Below the pieces are notes generated by a model that had not been told where the DNA came from, searched no databases, and was given only the letters and a program-made list of their open reading frames with translations. A DNA stretch of 41,294 nucleotides from an uncultured Schlesneria sp. (GTDB lineage: Bacteria > Planctomycetota > Planctomycetia > Planctomycetales > Planctomycetaceae), in the NCBI GenBank assembly GCA_903899985.1, contig CAIULL010000146.1:1-41294 (forward strand), written 5' to 3'. Shown here piece after piece: positions 28,347-36,769 of this stretch; within the stretch, counting starts at the first letter, position 1; every line of letters starts with the position of its first letter. A program made the translations under genes and the position numbers.

Positions 28347-28420
28347 GCTCTCGTAGCTCAATTGGATAGAGCGTCGGCCTCCGAAGCCGAAGGTTGCAGG
28401 TTCGACTCCTGCCGGGGGCA
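28347..28420 (+). tRNA. tRNA-Arg (anticodon CCG)
   Basis: The 74-base cloverleaf folds fully. The acceptor stem GCTCTCG pairs with CGGGGGC through two G-U pairs, followed by discriminator A. The D arm is GCTC/GAGC, the anticodon stem TCGGC/GCCGA with loop CTCCGAA gives anticodon CCG, and the T arm GCAGG/CCTGC encloses TTCGACT. It reads CGG codons. CCA is not encoded. A six-T run directly follows the gene and could serve as its terminator, leading into a dispersed repeat. Confidence 0.97.
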
Positions 28421-28480: not shown

Positions 28481-28816
28481 TTGATGATGACTCGCACAGC
28501 CGCAGTGAATCTGTGGTTTCTCTTGGGCGGGGCGGACCATACCGTAAGCTTGCTGAAATATGGCTCTTCTCGCAATCAGATTCATCCAACGATTTCTCAC
28601 GGTCTGGTTGCGCAATTCCAAGCGAAGATGCCAGCGTCAAAGTTCCTCAATCCTGGTTGACTGAAGGCAAGATTGGCGTTCCTGAAGAAGGGATGCCAAT
28701 CGTTTGATACGTCTTGTTCGAAAAACAATAAGTAGCGATAACACCAAAACTGTTTGAGGCTTCGAGTCCGCATCATCGTTGCGGAAGCCCCTCAATCGTT
28801 ACAGGAGACGCGTCGC
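28421..28816. other. 396-bp intergenic region after the tRNA
   Basis: Begins with repeat copy C and otherwise shows no gene I can support. The in-frame stretch just upstream of 28817 lacks a ribosome site. The promoter for the CxxCH protein gene should lie here. Confidence 0.45.
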
Positions 28817-29812
28817 ATGAGGCTCATTGTCAGGTTTGTGCTTTGTGCCCTCGTCGTCGCATTCCCAATTTCCATCGGACACACCCTCGTCTGGATCGAA
28901 GCGAGTGAACCCGATGACGCGAAGATCTCACAACCTGATGCGGATGATTGCCAGGAATATCGTGAAGCCGACGACTCATGGGCTGATCGCGATACGCCAG
29001 GATATCAGTTGTTTCCTGTGACCGCAGGGCATGTCGGAATTGCCTGCAACTTCGAAAATCTGAACGAGCAAAGCGCGCCGTCGCCACTCCCTATCGTTTG
29101 TGACCAAAACGAAGCGTTTTCCCGCTTTCACAACTGGTTCCAATCCGAATTTACTAAGGAAGAGTCCGATAGAGGGCACTGGTTCGCCGGGCACCGGCGC
29201 CGGGGTTACTCGGACGTCGATCGATTGGCTTTCGGAAATATCCGGAACTGGTACATCGTCGAATGGTCTGGAAATCGCTGGATCGAGCCGAAACTGTTCC
29301 TGTCCGTTGACGAATTTCATTCAGTCAAAGTCGATCTGATCTCGAAAAAATCGCGCTTCCTGCGAACCACGAAGCCCCACGCTTTCAGGAACACCGAAAC
29401 TTTTGGCACCCCTGAAGAAGATTTTGAGCGTTCAATCGTGAGGTACGATCCACTCGTCCGACTGCTCGAAGCATCAAACGAGCGAGCTGTCAGAACTGAG
29501 TGGACAATCGCTCGATTGCAATTGATCCCTCTGATGAAACAGACCGCCTCGGGCTCGGTCAGCGACCATTGCAAGCTTACGGCCTGGGAAATATACGAAT
29601 CATCACCAGAGAAGCTGAACGCTTTCGAACAGCGTGCTGTGGCACAGTTAGAATCGAATCTGGCAGAAAAGGTTGTCCTGACTTCGTCCGATGGCGAGAT
29701 TCAAGTGGTAGGCCCGTTGCGAGCGGTCGGGCGTTGCACGAAATGCCATCAAGTCCCCGATGGCACCTTGCTTGGTGTTTTGAGCTATCGGCTGACGCGG
29801 TCAGACCCATAA
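28817..29812 (+). CDS. Secreted protein of unknown function with C-terminal CxxCH
   Basis: A 331-residue exported protein. Residues 1-30 form a signal segment (MRLIVRFVLCALVVAFPISIGHTLVW). The middle has no motif I can name. Near the end, RCTKCHQVPDGTLLGVLSYRL carries a CxxCH at 307-311, a potential covalent c-heme site. The CH-x-x-x-x-G-LLG-LSY pattern resembles single-heme or heme-sensor tails of planctomycete proteins; attachment of heme is inferred. The ATG at 28817 is chosen over an upstream in-frame ATG at 28754 because AGGAG lies nine bases before it and the signal peptide begins there. Repeat copy D starts at the stop codon. Confidence 0.72.
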   Translation: MRLIVRFVLCALVVAFPISIGHTLVWIEASEPDDAKISQPDADDCQEYREADDSWADRDTPGYQLFPVTAGHVGIACNFENLNEQSAPSPLPIVCDQNEAFSRFHNWFQSEFTKEESDRGHWFAGHRRRGYSDVDRLAFGNIRNWYIVEWSGNRWIEPKLFLSVDEFHSVKVDLISKKSRFLRTTKPHAFRNTETFGTPEEDFERSIVRYDPLVRLLEASNERAVRTEWTIARLQLIPLMKQTASGSVSDHCKLTAWEIYESSPEKLNAFEQRAVAQLESNLAEKVVLTSSDGEIQVVGPLRAVGRCTKCHQVPDGTLLGVLSYRLTRSDP

Positions 29813-30133: not shown

Positions 30134-30613
30134 ATGAGTGAGTATTTCAGGGGATGGCAAAGAAAAGTCGGGGTCCTGACGCTCGTCATGGCGTGTGTGC
30201 TGACGACGATCTGGTTGACTTGCTTGACCAATCCAAGCCTGATTAATCGCCTGTTCGATCGCATGGTTCCCTACAGTGGTGGCGGAGTCACTCTCTTTAC
30301 CGATGGAAACAGGATCTCGCTCGTCAAAGGCGAGGTCATCACAACGATTGACGAGGTTGAGACTATCGATAATTCGAGCCATCCAACCACGCTCCCGGAA
30401 AGTAATCAAGATGCATCGCAAGACGATGATCAATCCACGGACGGTGTTTCGCAGATGACGGTGCCAGTACGTTTGGTCACTCTGAACCTGACATCAATGG
30501 TTGATATTCCGTTCTGGTCCATCGTCGTCCCTCTGATTTTGGTGTCAGCATTCTTGCTGCTCACCAAGCCGCGCAAATCGACCGTAAAGAAAATCCGTGA
30601 ACCCAATCCATAG
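30134..30613 (+). CDS. Tandem paralog 1: small two-helix membrane protein
   Basis: First member of a six-gene family of unknown function, 159 residues. The conserved N-terminus is MSEYFRGWQRKVGVLTLVMACVL, a basic Trp-Arg segment running into membrane helix 1 (about 12-30). The middle (about 31-125) is variable and here acidic, with a Ser/Asp/Gln-rich stretch near 85-102. The conserved C-terminus is IPFWSIVVPLILVSAFLLL (helix 2, about 126-144) and a Lys/Arg-rich tail. By the positive-inside rule both ends should be cytoplasmic and the middle outside. GGAGGA just before the ATG at 30134 fixes the start. This member differs most in its first residue pair (MS, not MG) and is 15 bp from the next. 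Confidence 0.75.
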   Translation: MSEYFRGWQRKVGVLTLVMACVLTTIWLTCLTNPSLINRLFDRMVPYSGGGVTLFTDGNRISLVKGEVITTIDEVETIDNSSHPTTLPESNQDASQDDDQSTDGVSQMTVPVRLVTLNLTSMVDIPFWSIVVPLILVSAFLLLTKPRKSTVKKIREPNP

Positions 30614-30628
30614 GATGGAACTTGAATC

Positions 30629-31150
30629 ATGGGTGAGTTCTTCAGAAGTTGGCGGCGGAAAATTGGCGTTTTGACGCTGCTGATGGCGTGTTTGCTCATG
30701 GCCGGGTGGATGAGGAGCTTAACAACGATTGATTGGCTGACGCTGGAAACTTGGAACAGCTTTTGGAGATTAACGATCGAGCACGGGACTGTGGAACTCT
30801 CTCGATACCAATATGTCAGCGGCGATCGACCGCAACTGAGTTTCAAAAATGGCGGTCTGAGTAGCTGGACCTCGGAAAATCTTGTGAATCCTGACGGGCA
30901 GATATCCAGGTTTGGGACGAGCAGAGCTAACCTGGCCACGGCGGATACAAATGCGGAATTCTGTGGGTTAGCCTACGCGACACGAAAGTGGATTACACCC
31001 ACATTTGTTGTCGATACGTCGTTCTTCGTCGTCACGTATCATTACTTGACCATCCCGCTCTCACTGCTGTCGGCTTATTTATTGCTCAGTAAGCCCCGCC
31101 CATCGCTCTCAGTAAAACCCCCTGAACCTTCCATGAAGGAGGGCACGTGA
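30629..31150 (+). CDS. Tandem paralog 2: small two-helix membrane protein
   Basis: A 173-residue member of the same family. It starts MGEFFRSWRRKIGVLTLLMACLLMAGWMRS, and helix 1 spans about 12-27. The middle (31-140) is unlike the other members and rich in Trp, Ser and Thr. The C-terminal helix is TIPLSLLSAYLLLSKPR, but the usual PYWSI in front of it is replaced by TYHYL. A conserved ATCATGGG junction sits before the next member, whose start lies three bases after this stop. A GGAGGG segment inside the last codons of this gene probably serves as the ribosome site for the next. Confidence 0.75.
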   Translation: MGEFFRSWRRKIGVLTLLMACLLMAGWMRSLTTIDWLTLETWNSFWRLTIEHGTVELSRYQYVSGDRPQLSFKNGGLSSWTSENLVNPDGQISRFGTSRANLATADTNAEFCGLAYATRKWITPTFVVDTSFFVVTYHYLTIPLSLLSAYLLLSKPRPSLSVKPPEPSMKEGT

Positions 31151-31153
31151 ATC

Positions 31154-31660
31154 ATGGGTGAGTATCTTCGCGGATGGCGAAGGAAGATCGGGGTTGTGGC
31201 CCTGTTTATGGCCTGCGTGATTGTGGGGGCGTGGGTAAGAAGTTTAATCCGACATGATCTGGTCATGATTCCATATGGCAATGATACTTTTTGTATCGAA
31301 TCAATGTGCGGTGAGATTGAATTCGCACGATTGACGACACGGGATAACAATACGAAACCAAAGTGGATCTCCAACGCAATCACGCCGGGACACTGGCGAT
31401 GGCTGGACGACGCAGGAAATCCACGAGCGGTAGATCACTTGGCGGAATTAGCCGAAAATGAACTTGATTGGCGATGGGATTGGGCGGGGTTTCACTTTGG
31501 AGCTGGACATTCAATCAATGACCGAGAAGAAGATTATATGCTCCCTTACTGGTCCATCGTGGTCCCGCTGACCCTCGCCTCACTTTGTCTTTTGCTATCC
31601 AACCCCGGTAAATCGGCATCGAAGAAAAACACGGCACCTGATGCGAGCGAAGGGGCGTGA
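31154..31660 (+). CDS. Tandem paralog 3: small two-helix membrane protein
   Basis: A 168-residue member: MGEYLRGWRRKIGVVALFMACVIVGAWVRS, a variable middle at about 31-128 with an aromatic WRWDWAGFHFGAG motif near 106-118, then LPYWSIVVPLTLASLCLLL and the tail KSASKKN. The aromatic segment, W-x-W-x-x-x-x-F, recurs in altered form in paralog 6 (WQWKVGEFEIGEH) and suggests a shared strand in the outer domain. Start and stop are each three bases from the neighbouring family genes. Confidence 0.75.
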   Translation: MGEYLRGWRRKIGVVALFMACVIVGAWVRSLIRHDLVMIPYGNDTFCIESMCGEIEFARLTTRDNNTKPKWISNAITPGHWRWLDDAGNPRAVDHLAELAENELDWRWDWAGFHFGAGHSINDREEDYMLPYWSIVVPLTLASLCLLLSNPGKSASKKNTAPDASEGA

Positions 31661-31663
31661 ATT

Positions 31664-32167
31664 ATGGGCGAATTTTTTCGGGGATGGCGTCGGAAAGTTG
31701 GCGTGGTGTCGCTCCTGATCGCGTGCTTGTTTGCCGCAGGATGGGTACGCAGTCAACACATCGTTGATTGCATTTTCGTAGGGCATCCAGGACGGGTTCA
31801 CCATTTGTCCTCGGATGCATTTGGAATTTGGTCGGCGTACACCAATTATCGACAGACTCATCAAGGTGTCACAACTCGGCTTCTGCCTGAATTCTCATAT
31901 CGATCATTTGAAGAACCACTTCGCCCAATCTCACCGGATTTTGAATTCAGCACCGATCATTATACCGCACGAACGTTTTGCGGCTTCTACTTCGCCGTGG
32001 CGACACAAAACGACGATTCTATCATTGAGGAGGAATCAACGTGGATTATTCCCTATTGGTCCATCGTCATCCCGCTGACCTTGCTTTCCGCTTTGCTGCT
32101 CCTCTCCATGCCTGGAAAATCGAATCAAATCAAAATCCATCAATCGACGAAAAACGAAGACACGTGA
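31664..32167 (+). CDS. Tandem paralog 4: small two-helix membrane protein
   Basis: A 167-residue member: MGEFFRGWRRKVGVVSLLIACLFAAGWVRS, a variable middle at about 31-128 (for example YTARTFCGFYFAVA near 99-112), then IPYWSIVIPLTLLSALLLL, the best match to the family consensus, and a Lys-rich tail. At the nucleotide level it shares a 23-base identical stretch with paralog 5 over the start of the conserved region (31682-31704 against 32189-32211), while the middles are unrelated in sequence. Both flanking gaps are three bases. Confidence 0.75.
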   Translation: MGEFFRGWRRKVGVVSLLIACLFAAGWVRSQHIVDCIFVGHPGRVHHLSSDAFGIWSAYTNYRQTHQGVTTRLLPEFSYRSFEEPLRPISPDFEFSTDHYTARTFCGFYFAVATQNDDSIIEEESTWIIPYWSIVIPLTLLSALLLLSMPGKSNQIKIHQSTKNEDT

Positions 32168-32170
32168 ATT

Positions 32171-32683
32171 ATGGGTGATTATTTTCGAGGATGGCGTCGG
32201 AAAGTTGGCGTCGTGACGCTGCTGCTGGCGTGCGTGTTGGCAGCGGCCTGGATCAGAAGCATCGGACGGGAAGAAGGGGTCTATTTTGATTCGAAAGGTC
32301 AAACCCCTTTGATGCTCTGCTCACGCAACCACTTCCTGACCATCATCTTCTCAAGACATTTCACTCGGCCGGTTGTTTTCACTCAACTGAAGCTCCGCTG
32401 GTTTGACCAGACCTGTTCAGAGGAAACGAATGAAGAATATTGGACGTTAGCGAATGCCGGCTTTACTAGCGTGGTGACAAACGCTTGGACTCTCAGCGGA
32501 ATGATGATCGGGTCCGCATTTGACACCTCGATTTCGAATCCGTTGAAGAGATGGTTTATCTCTTTCCCCTACTGGTTGATCACGATCCCATTGACCTTCG
32601 TCTCCGCTTATTTGCTCGTTTCCAAACCCAAAAGTTCGACTTTAAAGAAACCCATCGACCCCGATGTGAGCGATGGAACGTGA
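32171..32683 (+). CDS. Tandem paralog 5: small two-helix membrane protein
   Basis: A 170-residue member: MGDYFRGWRRKVGVVTLLLACVLAAAWIRS, a variable middle at about 31-133 with an extra hydrophobic stretch (ANAGFTSVVTNAWTLSGMMIG), then FPYWLITIPLTFVSAYLLV and a tail with KPKSSTLKKP. Start and reading frame are supported by the conserved junction sequence. The family run is interrupted after this gene by a small unrelated membrane protein. Confidence 0.75.
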   Translation: MGDYFRGWRRKVGVVTLLLACVLAAAWIRSIGREEGVYFDSKGQTPLMLCSRNHFLTIIFSRHFTRPVVFTQLKLRWFDQTCSEETNEEYWTLANAGFTSVVTNAWTLSGMMIGSAFDTSISNPLKRWFISFPYWLITIPLTFVSAYLLVSKPKSSTLKKPIDPDVSDGT

Positions 32684-32730
32684 AATACAGAAGCGCTTTT
32701 TGGATCCGGCAAAGAAGGGAGGGGATGGCC

Positions 32731-32973
32731 ATGAAATCGTTTTTTGGGAATGGGCGGCGATATTTCATCGGGCTGTTGGCTTTCGTCCCATTTTTAACGA
32801 TGCTGACCCTCCATCGCCTGCTTGGGTTGTCCGACGCATTCATGTCCAAACCAAAGCCAGATGAACCTTTTTGGCCGGGCTATAATGAGGTGATGGTCAT
32901 CGCTTTTTATGCGGGAATACTTGGTTATCTTGCTTACCTGTGGAACACTGGTTTCCGGAACCCAGATAAATGA
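32731..32973 (+). CDS. Small membrane protein of unknown function inside the array
   Basis: An 80-residue protein with two hydrophobic segments (YFIGLLAFVPFLTMLTLHRLL and VMVIAFYAGILGYLAYLW), separated by a Pro/Lys-rich loop (FMSKPKPDEPFWPGY). It is not a member of the surrounding paralog family and I do not recognise it. The ATG at 32731 is preferred to the one at 32725 because GGAGGGG ends at 32724, leaving a usable six-base spacing. It lies between paralogs 5 and 6 on the same strand and may be co-transcribed. Confidence 0.6.
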   Translation: MKSFFGNGRRYFIGLLAFVPFLTMLTLHRLLGLSDAFMSKPKPDEPFWPGYNEVMVIAFYAGILGYLAYLWNTGFRNPDK

Positions 32974-33088
32974 CGGTCATGCCTCATGCATGAGTTCGCG
33001 CCAGAATGTTATTTTGAAATTGTCTCTTCGGAACGAACGATTCAAACGAAAATCACTGAACCCACTGGCTGGCGAGGATGCGTGAATC

Positions 33089-33580
33089 ATGGGCGAGTTC
33101 TTTAAAACGTGGCAACGTAAGTTCGGCGTTATGACGCTGCTGATGACGCTGGTGTTTACAGCAGGGTGGGTGAGGAGCTACGTCCTGTTCGAAAAATTCT
33201 GTTTTCGCGTCGAGCGGTTTTCAACGAGTCATCAGCATCTGTATTCGACGAATGGCCAGATCTGGTGGTCAAGATTATTAGAGGAGCAGGGTGGGCTTCA
33301 TTGCAATTGGCATTGCAGCAACAAGAGCTCGAATGTGATCATCTGCGATCCAAACGAGATCACCTGGCAGTGGAAAGTGGGAGAATTCGAGATCGGAGAA
33401 CACCCCGATATCGGGATCGGCAGGGTGACCTACGCCATTATCCCGTATTGGTCTATCGCACTTCCACTGGCCGCCGTCTCGGCATTCTTGCTGCTCTCGA
33501 ATTCCGGCAAATCGCCTTCGAAAGAACTCGCCGATCCCGCACCATTCGCTCCGATTCGTCAGGGGGAGTTTCCCCTGTAA
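33089..33580 (+). CDS. Tandem paralog 6: small two-helix membrane protein
   Basis: A 163-residue member: MGEFFKTWQRKFGVMTLLMTLVFTAGWVRS, a variable middle with WQWKVGEFEIGEH, then IPYWSIALPLAAVSAFLLL and a shorter tail. It is the last family gene, separated from paralog 5 by the 80-residue protein and about 115 bp of spacer. The conserved junction (GCGTGAATCATGGG) is retained before its ATG although no family gene directly precedes it. That suggests the junction was duplicated with the gene. Functional role unknown. Confidence 0.75.
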   Translation: MGEFFKTWQRKFGVMTLLMTLVFTAGWVRSYVLFEKFCFRVERFSTSHQHLYSTNGQIWWSRLLEEQGGLHCNWHCSNKSSNVIICDPNEITWQWKVGEFEIGEHPDIGIGRVTYAIIPYWSIALPLAAVSAFLLLSNSGKSPSKELADPAPFAPIRQGEFPL

Positions 33581-33617: not shown

Positions 33618-33950
33618 CTATTCGCTGATGTCCAAGTCACTTTGTGTCAGCAGATCCTGCCCGGTGCCGCGCACCGTAAGGACTTGGATGTCCTTTTCAC
33701 GAATGATAAACACCAGCCGGTAGGTATTACCTCGCCGTGTTTTGAATAACCGTTGTCGCAAATCGATTCCCACATCTTCCACCTCGGGAGCTGGCGTACT
33801 CGACATCGCATTTTCAGAAAGTTCAGTCACGCTCATTTCCAAGGCGTTCAACCAGCTTATGGCACCTTTCGATGAGCGGCTCTTTATCCATGATGCTATC
33901 TCGCGTACATCTCGTTTAGCACGATTTGAGAATTGAACGCGAAAGCTCAT
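33618..33950 (-). CDS. ParE/RelE-type toxin
   Basis: A 110-residue protein with the RelE/ParE toxin fold signature: VQFSNRAKRDVREIASWIKSRSSKGAISWLNAL, then RQRLFKTRRGNTYRLVFIIREKDIQVLTVRGTGQDLL. ParE-like members poison DNA gyrase and RelE-like ones cut mRNA at the ribosome; which applies here cannot be told from sequence. It is translated downstream of its probable antitoxin with a four-base ATGA overlap, a usual arrangement for type II toxin-antitoxin operons. Confidence 0.88.
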   Translation of the reverse strand: MSFRVQFSNRAKRDVREIASWIKSRSSKGAISWLNALEMSVTELSENAMSSTPAPEVEDVGIDLRQRLFKTRRGNTYRLVFIIREKDIQVLTVRGTGQDLLTQSDLDISE

Positions 33951-34177
33951 GCCTCATTCATTTCTGCTCGAATCTCACGCATGACATCCTCCGACGGATA
34001 CGTACGTCCCGCTTCGACATCCGCGAGTCCTTCGCGAATCGCAGCCAAAGCTTCTTCTCGCTCTCGCCAAAGTGCGAGCGCCAGTTCTGGCGACATTTGA
34101 GCTGCAGCGTCAGATGCCAGTTGTTCACCGACGAACTGGTGAAAGCTTGCAAGATTGTTGGTTTGCAATGACGGCAT
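33947..34177 (-). CDS. Antitoxin partner of the ParE/RelE-type toxin
   Basis: A 76-residue acidic, helical protein encoded directly upstream of the toxin, overlapping by ATGA. The C-terminal REGLADVEAGRTYPSEDVMREIRAEM segment is typical of antitoxins that wrap their ParE/RelE-type toxin. The N-terminal part (SLQTNNLASFHQFVGEQL) is less typical and no strong DNA-binding motif is evident. GGGAGGAAAC before the ATG is the strongest ribosome site in the neighbourhood, which fits the need for antitoxin excess. Confidence 0.8.
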   Translation of the reverse strand: MPSLQTNNLASFHQFVGEQLASDAAAQMSPELALALWREREEALAAIREGLADVEAGRTYPSEDVMREIRAEMNEA

Positions 34178-34249
34178 TGTTTCCTCCCATCACTTATTCG
34201 AACCAATTCAGAGTACCACAGTGATTGGGATCGGTCAAAGTTTGAGCCG

Positions 34250-36160: not shown

Positions 36161-36769
36161 ATGAAGCTGATGATGGCGATGATGACAGTTGGATTGGTCT
36201 TCTTAGGCGGGATAACGACGATTCGTGCAGAGACTTTCGCGACCAGTGAAGCTGCGCGACAGGATTCAAACGAGGCCAATTCAGCGATTTCATTTCCTTC
36301 TGGCCTTCATCCCGTGGATATGGCACCTTCATCTTCAGCCGCAAAAGGCATCGTTGAGAATGGTCGCGATCGAATTGACGAGAATAACATTCGGCAAAAA
36401 ATCTCTTCAGACCGTGTGGATCTAGTGATCAAGCGTTCCCGTGATGGAATCAAGATCACGTTCGCACCTCAATCGGATCGCGGTGTCAACCGAAATCATT
36501 TTAACTGCGTGAAATCGGGCAGTGGTGACTTTGATGAGTCTCTCAAGATTGGTTCCTTCGCTGAGGATTCCGTTGAACCAAAATCAGTAAAGTCCGTGAA
36601 GAAGAGGGATCCTGCAGCGTCAGGAAAATTCGGTCTCACGAAACGTGACGGCTTATCCAACATGAAATTGAGTGATTTCCCTGGATTAAGCAGTCTGATG
36701 CTTGCGACGTTGGATTTGATCGGTGTGGTCATTGGCTGTTACCGCCAGCGTCGTTCATTCGTTGTTTAG
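36161..36769 (+). CDS. Secreted protein of unknown function with C-terminal membrane anchor
   Basis: A 202-residue exported protein. The signal peptide (MKLMMAMMTVGLVFLGGITTIRAET) is followed by a polar, low-complexity body rich in Ser, Asp and Lys. It ends in a hydrophobic helix (FPGLSSLMLATLDLIGVVIGCY) and basic RQRRSFVV. This signal-body-helix-basic tail layout resembles sorting-signal proteins, but no PEP, LPXTG or other known motif precedes the helix, so simple membrane anchoring is the default. AGGATTG lies upstream of the ATG. The gene is followed by a hairpin terminator. Confidence 0.55.
   Translation: MKLMMAMMTVGLVFLGGITTIRAETFATSEAARQDSNEANSAISFPSGLHPVDMAPSSSAAKGIVENGRDRIDENNIRQKISSDRVDLVIKRSRDGIKITFAPQSDRGVNRNHFNCVKSGSGDFDESLKIGSFAEDSVEPKSVKSVKKRDPAASGKFGLTKRDGLSNMKLSDFPGLSSLMLATLDLIGVVIGCYRQRRSFVV

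Follow-up and report, generated by a model that had tools for sequence, protein, structure and literature searches.

Why should a bacterium keep, side by side, six genes whose products agree at both ends and disagree in between? The genes in question lie within positions 30134 to 33580 of a 41,294-nucleotide (nt) stretch of DNA from an uncultured Schlesneria species (contig CAIULL010000146.1, forward strand; hereafter the window). All six are on the + strand, and they encode proteins of 159-173 residues in which common ends enclose unlike middles. The explanation favoured here is that together they are one of the arrays of a large family of small inner-membrane proteins in Schlesneria, each with two helices. 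The ends would make up a membrane scaffold, with the N-terminus and the C-terminal tail in the cytoplasm, and the middle, about 95 residues long, would be a beta domain of seven strands exposed on the outer side of the cytoplasmic membrane. Such units would be gained, lost and sometimes recombined, the shared ends offering places at which homologous recombination could join different units, with the result that the scaffold carries different middles in related species, each retained middle being under purifying selection. The array would then be part of a bank of envelope-facing protective proteins of the immunity type, each middle suited to another attacker. We give this statement as a whole, from scaffold to immunity bank, a probability of approximately 0.35. 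Its descriptive core, a constant scaffold with turnover of the units built on it, is very probably correct.

A first-pass annotation of the window had described the six as consecutive same-strand paralogs with shared ends, and had named generic membrane-helix composition as a possible source of the likeness. Fourteen alignment columns are invariant across the six proteins. With gene 4 as sole query, other copies were found in the assembly that holds the window (G000) at E-values down to 1.6e-19. A family profile, built partly from the very G000 copies it then finds, gave 41 matches on 19 contigs of that assembly, 22 of them near full length with E-values of 5.5e-50 to 1e-30. On the strength of the invariant columns, the single-gene matches and the profile matches the ends are judged to be homologous, and the description as paralogs is confirmed. 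They are consecutive only in part: genes 1 to 5 are separated by 15, 3, 3 and 3 nt, but gene 6 begins 405 nt beyond gene 5, behind an open reading frame (ORF) of 82 amino acids (aa). Some units abut through a junction made of a stop, a single isoleucine codon and a start (Table 1); among 82 full units collected across the genus, TGAATC stands directly before the ATG in 25 and TGAATT in 4.

The search of planctomycete genomes that the annotation had proposed was productive. A search with a single member found matches in 12 of the genus's 15 genomes, at 2 to 110 per genome (these are counts of matches, not of genes). The three genomes without a match measure 4.7, 6.3 and 6.8 megabases (Mb), and two genomes of 8.4-8.5 Mb have 13 and 23 matches only. 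In other genera of the same bacterial family only one of 59 sampled genomes had a match, and in a sample of the phylum, with 12 candidates scored per genome, one of 293 other genomes did. By these counts the protein family appears nearly confined to Schlesneria. The protein found in another genus of the same bacterial family (genome G230) has 152 aa and resembles the Schlesneria family in its two hydrophobic ends and similar middle (E 5e-17 to the family profile). It differs in being the single match in its genome, and possibly represents the unexpanded state of the family. Relatives of it were found in three of 246 phylum genomes, namely G230 itself, G000 and, as one short weak match, G255. 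Shorter middles also occur within the family, and in two cases a pair of family units is read in one frame (the double units of Table 1). One G000 copy is split over two frames (L031:6843-7340 and L031:6854-7291, - strand) where its counterpart in a related species (G008) is one open frame; it is probably a recent pseudogene, or else an assembly error.

The middles had been called almost unalignable. Taken in pairs they are: nucleotide identity among the six window middles is 0.47-0.55, which is background, and no listed within-genome pair of middles is more than 38% identical over more than half its length. At the level of a profile the statement mostly fails. A profile was trained on 28 middles from four other genomes and its scores were compared with those of shuffled copies: of the G000 middles tested, 13 in all, 11 exceeded the 99th percentile of the shuffles and 9 exceeded every shuffle. 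For three related Schlesneria species (G008, G010 and G012) the figures were 31 and 29 of 41 middles, respectively. Within the window, genes 3 and 6 scored clearly, gene 3 not being an independent case since the training set contains counterparts 52-54% identical to it. Genes 2 and 5 lay just over the 99th percentile and gene 4 just below it, and the middle of gene 1 was unmatched.

AlphaFold2 (AF2) models were obtained for gene 3 (predicted local distance difference test, pLDDT, 83; predicted template-modelling score, pTM, 0.72) and gene 4 (pLDDT 81, pTM 0.70). Both are predicted to have a helix at about residues 8-30, seven strands within 33-131 and a second helix at about 132-148. The input alignments were shallow, at 19 and 22 sequences, and overlapping, so that the agreement of the two models is not independent. 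The first 13 residues carry a net positive charge in all 82 full units, the middle is negative in 57 (mean -2.9) and the C-terminal tail tends only weakly to be positive, in 50. The charges of N-terminus and middle, together with the models, indicate that the middle is probably outside the cytoplasm and the N-terminus and tail inside, which agrees with the first-pass picture of constant membrane anchors bearing a varied, extracytoplasmic domain. That picture was to be abandoned if the middles proved conserved in both fold and surface; the fold is shared by the two models, but the surface sequence is not conserved. A Foldseek search of the PDB with the gene 4 model gave no match at E ≤ 0.001. 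The CYTH-like matches of gene 3 (E 6.0e-4 and 7.2e-4) had TM-scores of 0.17-0.18 and were rejected as fold matches. A sequence search of the PDB with the family profile returned none at E ≤ 1.

How the array changes can be followed at the same locus in G008, G010 and G012, where the flanking genes are syntenic. The order of units is 1-2-3-4-5-6 in G000, 1-2-3-5 in G010, 1-2-W-5-Y plus an N-terminal fragment in G012, and X-4-Y-6-Z in G008, Z being a double unit. Units that are shared are well conserved. In G010 the counterpart of gene 2 is 91% identical and that of gene 5 86%, and in G012 the figures are 85% and 75%; in single-member searches gene 3 was 83% identical in G010 and at most 54% elsewhere, and gene 4 was 84% identical in G008 and at most 46% elsewhere. 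The same holds when whole assemblies are compared. Of 34 G000 middle entries, eight (from 7 genes) are matched in G008 at 71-91% aa identity and two at 45-58%; for the other 24 the best match does not exceed 39% identity or else does not exceed 21 residues (66 of the 69 G008 matches lay in the compared stretches, three short ones being left out). The repertoire thus differs by sets of units, not by fast amino-acid change. The window itself contains what is probably the tail relic of a lost unit (Table 1).

Diversifying selection on the middles, which the annotation had suggested from the constant anchors and varied outer domain, was not borne out. The pooled ratio of nonsynonymous (dN) to synonymous (dS) divergence of the array middles, with limits in parentheses, was 0.20 (0.13-0.30) to G010 for four genes, 0.23 (0.16-0.34) to G012 for three and 0.19 (0.11-0.31) to G008 for two. 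Flanking genes gave 0.08-0.09 and the cytoplasmic tails 0.55-1.07. The dN of the middles was 0.048, 0.082 and 0.071 to G010, G012 and G008, against 0.044, 0.045 and 0.076 for the flanks, i.e. much the same as the flanks for two of the relatives and higher by a factor of about 1.8 for the other. Orthologous middles are under purifying selection, less constrained than the flanks, and the tails are nearly free; with a pooled dN/dS of about 0.2, diversifying selection within orthologs by point mutation is rejected. There is possibly selection for a varied repertoire, but not through fast amino-acid change within a lineage. Positive selection does not necessarily follow from constant ends around a variable middle: in this case the middles that species share are conserved, and it is from unit to unit that they vary.

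The best evidence that units are also recombined is unit W of G012, which stands in the place of gene 3. Its C-terminal end with tail has a nucleotide identity of 0.89 to gene 3 of G010 and 0.75 to gene 3 of G000, and at most 0.68 to other genes. Its middle, at 0.52 to gene 3, is within the background of 0.45-0.55, and its N-terminal end is at 0.70-0.73 to gene 3 and up to 0.78 to others. Judged by its sequence, W is a clear chimera, the C-terminal end and tail of gene 3 being joined to an unrelated middle, and the family has at least this one. In a scan of segments over 3320 unit pairs, 26 ortholog-like and 24 intermediate pairs were set aside; among the 3270 remaining, whose middles are unrelated, W and gene 3 of G010 had the highest C-end identity, at 0.86. 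Twenty-five unrelated-middle pairs reached the lower quartile of orthologs (0.80) in their N-ends, and 7 of the 16 listed were from the array of one genome (G011), where N-ends at 0.82-0.87 accompany C-ends at 0.47-0.62 and unlike middles. Two pairs in the G009 array agree at 0.84 in the C-end and at 0.64 and 0.76 in the N-end. Between G000 and G008 the middle of gene 4 is 0.91 identical and its C-end with tail only 0.71. Units of the same array (177 pairs, label permutation) had an excess identity of +0.031 in N-ends and +0.036 in C-ends, both with p ≤ 0.0005, and none in middles (+0.002, p = 0.18). At third codon positions the ends have also diverged more than the middles in 15 of the 20 ortholog pairs compared. 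The pattern suggests that ends and middles have partly separate genealogies, as if the ends were recombination sites.

A number of results weigh against recombination in the ends as a general motor of this variety. A pairwise mosaic test on third codon positions, with tails removed, gave p ≤ 0.05 for 3 of 20 ortholog pairs and for 10 of 54 control pieces of flanking genes. There is no excess, and frequent exchange of ends inside orthologous genes is unsupported. The best single cases were gene 4 and the pair L110/L081 (p = 0.003 each), and 5 of the 54 controls also had p ≤ 0.01. A max-chi-type test that kept the tails had given 7 of 20 at p ≤ 0.02; much of this was driven by the variable tails, and within-gene mosaics were dropped as evidence. 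Unit X of G008, with a gene 2-like N-end (0.79-0.83) and a middle at background, is a weak chimera, for two G008 units elsewhere have N-ends equally near gene 2 (0.82-0.83). The C-ends discriminate poorly below about 0.8, since 128 of the 3270 unrelated pairs reach the ortholog lower quartile of 0.67. BLASTN blocks between the window and its relatives stop within the conserved ends, for example at 31236 and 31544 for G012 and at 31746 and 32051 for G010, but such breaks are partly expected because paralogous ends align with one another, and they prove little alone. The small array-specific likeness of ends could partly reflect shared genome composition or ancestry, and the middles are too diverged to show any. 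Finally, dS to G010 is 0.24 (0.18-0.32) in the array middles against 0.56 (0.51-0.60) in the flanks, and the low value affects the ends as well as the middles. To G008 it is 0.19 (0.08-0.32) for the gene 4 middle, 0.74 (0.41-1.46) for the gene 6 middle and 0.84 (0.78-0.92) for the flanks. Recent exchange between species would explain the low values, but to G010 the ends have them too, and other causes are also to be considered.

Ordinary birth and death of ancient paralogs is the alternative to which these results lend most weight. The copies would have been lost differently in each species, the ends would be a conserved scaffold and recombination would be incidental. The conserved orthologous middles, the mosaic test and the lack of recent duplicates among G000 middles all fit, and partial or frame-split copies are numerous, 19 of the 41 G000 matches falling below near full length. 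Unit W does not fit, nor does the G011 array, in much of which the N-ends are nearly alike but the middles and C-ends are not. By rough arithmetic, an ancestor with some 165 copies would also be needed if independent losses had left roughly 30 in one genome and 55 in another, about 10 of them in common. We hold birth and death alone to be a real, if rather doubtful, explanation. A bolder form of the favoured reading is equally tentative: outer beta-domain cassettes, all on one invariant two-helix scaffold, would form an open pool across the genus, with about 20 loci in this genome, and be swapped between loci and species via the scaffold-coding ends, so that the anchors double as recombination arms. 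It would give the Planctomycetota a membrane-borne repertoire system that matches none of the named immunity families. A small membrane module might instead have multiplied neutrally or almost so, its copies decaying and the repertoire serving no function; this would account for the many partial copies, the want of a known partner and the near restriction to one genus. Purifying selection on orthologous middles, with upper limits of pooled dN/dS of 0.30, 0.34 and 0.31, makes it very improbable.

What the middles do is a separate matter. Were they sensors or signal receptors, the outer beta domain would bind a ligand, the helices would relay the signal and the expansion would track metabolic or environmental breadth. 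The AF2 models, in which two helices hold a small outer domain, suit this, and the matchless genomes of the genus are small (4.7-6.8 Mb), though the two of 8.4-8.5 Mb have few matches. However, there is no cytoplasmic signalling domain, the N-terminal cytoplasmic part being about 10 residues and the tail short, variable and little constrained, and tandem, near-equivalent units with 3-nt spacers would seem to suit a bank better; we think sensing improbable. Blocks of phage DNA entry, i.e. inner-membrane proteins of the superinfection-exclusion type with middles matched to different phages, might also be expected to be short, to vary in their outer parts and to turn over quickly in an arms race. 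None of the 41 family members matched PADLOC or PHROGs at E ≤ 0.01, and single members searched alone found no match in phage and plasmid records (gene 3) or in IMG/VR (gene 4). This role is quite improbable, and the first two of these null results count against a bank of immunity proteins as well.

The case for such a bank is one of analogy. Tandem units, short spacers, turnover, fused doubles, end blocks and the lack of a recognised toxin in the array liken it to polyimmunity loci and to the TipC and EsaG arrays. Polyimmunity loci, in passages of PMC3482391, are tandem paralogs, distantly related and in one orientation, with short spacers and no toxin gene between them, variable in content between close relatives and including fused multi-domain versions. 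The Schlesneria units are likewise distantly related tandem paralogs of one type, the middle of gene 1 being the one unmatched by profile, in one orientation and, gene 6 apart, closely spaced; their number and type differ among relatives, which here are species of one genus and not strains. According to the same passages of PMC3482391, extended polyimmunity loci are found only in certain proteobacteria, bacteroidetes, firmicutes and actinobacteria, usually one per organism, and their members belong to recognised immunity families. The Schlesneria loci are many and dispersed, on 19 contigs, which speaks against the likeness, and their members match no such family (Pfam and NCBIfam for the six, Pfam for the 41).

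TipC arrays of streptococcal type VII secretion, as portrayed in parts of PMC9484751, have conserved blocks near start and end around a variable centre, as do the Schlesneria units, and recombine between paralogs via these blocks, for which Schlesneria offers one clear chimera and the end-sharing pairs, but no mosaic excess over flanks. TipC carries a signal of the lipoprotein type, and its genes stand at a known toxin gene's locus; the Schlesneria proteins have two helices, many dispersed loci and no identified toxin partner, and their sequences match none of the known immunity families. The TipC fold (6DHX) was absent among the 50 Foldseek PDB matches listed for each of the two models. The EsaG arrays of Staphylococcus aureus are also similar; EsaD, the nuclease toxin that EsaG neutralises, has its gene at the same locus, and membrane helices are not described for EsaG in the PMC9484751 passages. 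Imm17, in passages of PMC3482391, has two transmembrane helices with WxW and an R in between; the Schlesneria consensus has two predicted helices with a W-R-W motif between them, and differs in its beta domain of about 95 residues and in the lack of a Pfam match to Imm17.

Searches by name returned little. No Pfam or NCBIfam family fits the six proteins; the few matches at E ≤ 1 were all below curated cut-offs and none was to an immunity family. Imm17, for which Pfam has a model, matched none of the six at E ≤ 1 nor any of the 41 members at E ≤ 0.01. The sole Pfam match of the 41 was TMEM125 (E 0.0029), again no immunity family, and a cognate toxin was also missing: no evident secreted toxin occurs among the 25 listed of 58 Pfam families of the 63 ORFs near copies. 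Both results tell against an immunity role. As no named immunity, defence or phage family matches, we say that the array works like a TipC array or a polyimmunity locus and not that it is one, and even this is tentative. If the favoured reading is correct, planctomycetes own a large and quickly reshuffled repertoire of envelope proteins, similar in logic to firmicute immunity arrays and different in scaffold and scale. It would account for unannotated proteins that fill dozens of genes per genome, and the question to test would be which attacker each middle answers.

A link to a two-helix family with a C-terminal zinc ribbon was also considered; an exact degenerate DNA pattern for its motif occurred in 0 of 119 genomes and the idea was unsupported. 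No description of the family was found in titles and abstract beginnings of the literature, which does not establish its absence from print. General paralog expansion in planctomycetes is treated in PMC8567305, and the Schlesneria family was not met among the passages listed from it. The ORFs near dispersed copies belong mostly to metabolic or generic Pfam families (among the 25 listed of 58); they include one strong DpdE-like match (E 1e-237), two phage integrases and one resolvase.

Table 1. Coordinates of the array genes and associated features (window positions unless a locus is named)
Feature	Coordinates	Strand	Length (aa)	Remarks
Gene 1	30134-30613	+	159	N-end 30134-30223, middle 30224-30508, C-end and tail 30509-30610; orthologs in G010, G012
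Gene 2	30629-31150	+	173	Middle 30719-31033; orthologs in G010, G012
Gene 3	31154-31660	+	168	Middle 31244-31543, motif WRW.W.GFHFG; another middle in its place in G012
Gene 4	31664-32167	+	167	Middle 31754-32050; ortholog in G008; missing from syntenic arrays of G010, G012
Gene 5	32171-32683	+	170	Middle 32261-32566; orthologs in G010, G012
Gene 6	33089-33580	+	163	Middle 33179-33442; ortholog in G008
Junction TGA-ATC-ATG	31148-31156	+		Genes 2-3
Junction TGA-ATT-ATG	31658-31666	+		Genes 3-4
Junction TGA-ATT-ATG	32165-32173	+		Genes 4-5
Hydrophobic ORF	32725-32973	+	82	Within the 405-nt gap that follows gene 5; also conserved in G010
Probable tail relic of a lost unit	33038-33088	+		Immediately precedes gene 6; reads ..KITEPT.., then TGAATC
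Double unit	L047:5749-7323	+	525	Two family units in one frame
Double unit	L079:9153-10226	+	358	Two family units in one frame

The hydrophobic ORF in front of gene 6 has no Pfam or NCBIfam match and may encode a small membrane protein unrelated to the family. A ParE-type toxin gene (PF05016, E 1.1e-9) closely follows the array on its 3' side, at 33618-33950 on the - strand, and a small open frame without a Pfam match (about 33950-34180, - strand) occupies the antitoxin position upstream of it. None of the BLASTN alignments to the syntenic loci in G008, G010 and G012 includes this stretch. Further on, a 202-aa ORF without a Pfam match (36161-36769, + strand) is 51% identical in G010 and G012, against 72-97% for the nearest genes on either side, and by this measure is another fast-changing gene near the array. 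Upstream, the gene at 28754-29812 (+ strand) has no significant Pfam match (best E 0.1) and a dN/dS of 0.28-0.31 against the three relatives. At Rfam gathering thresholds the window contains one tRNA, at 28347-28420.

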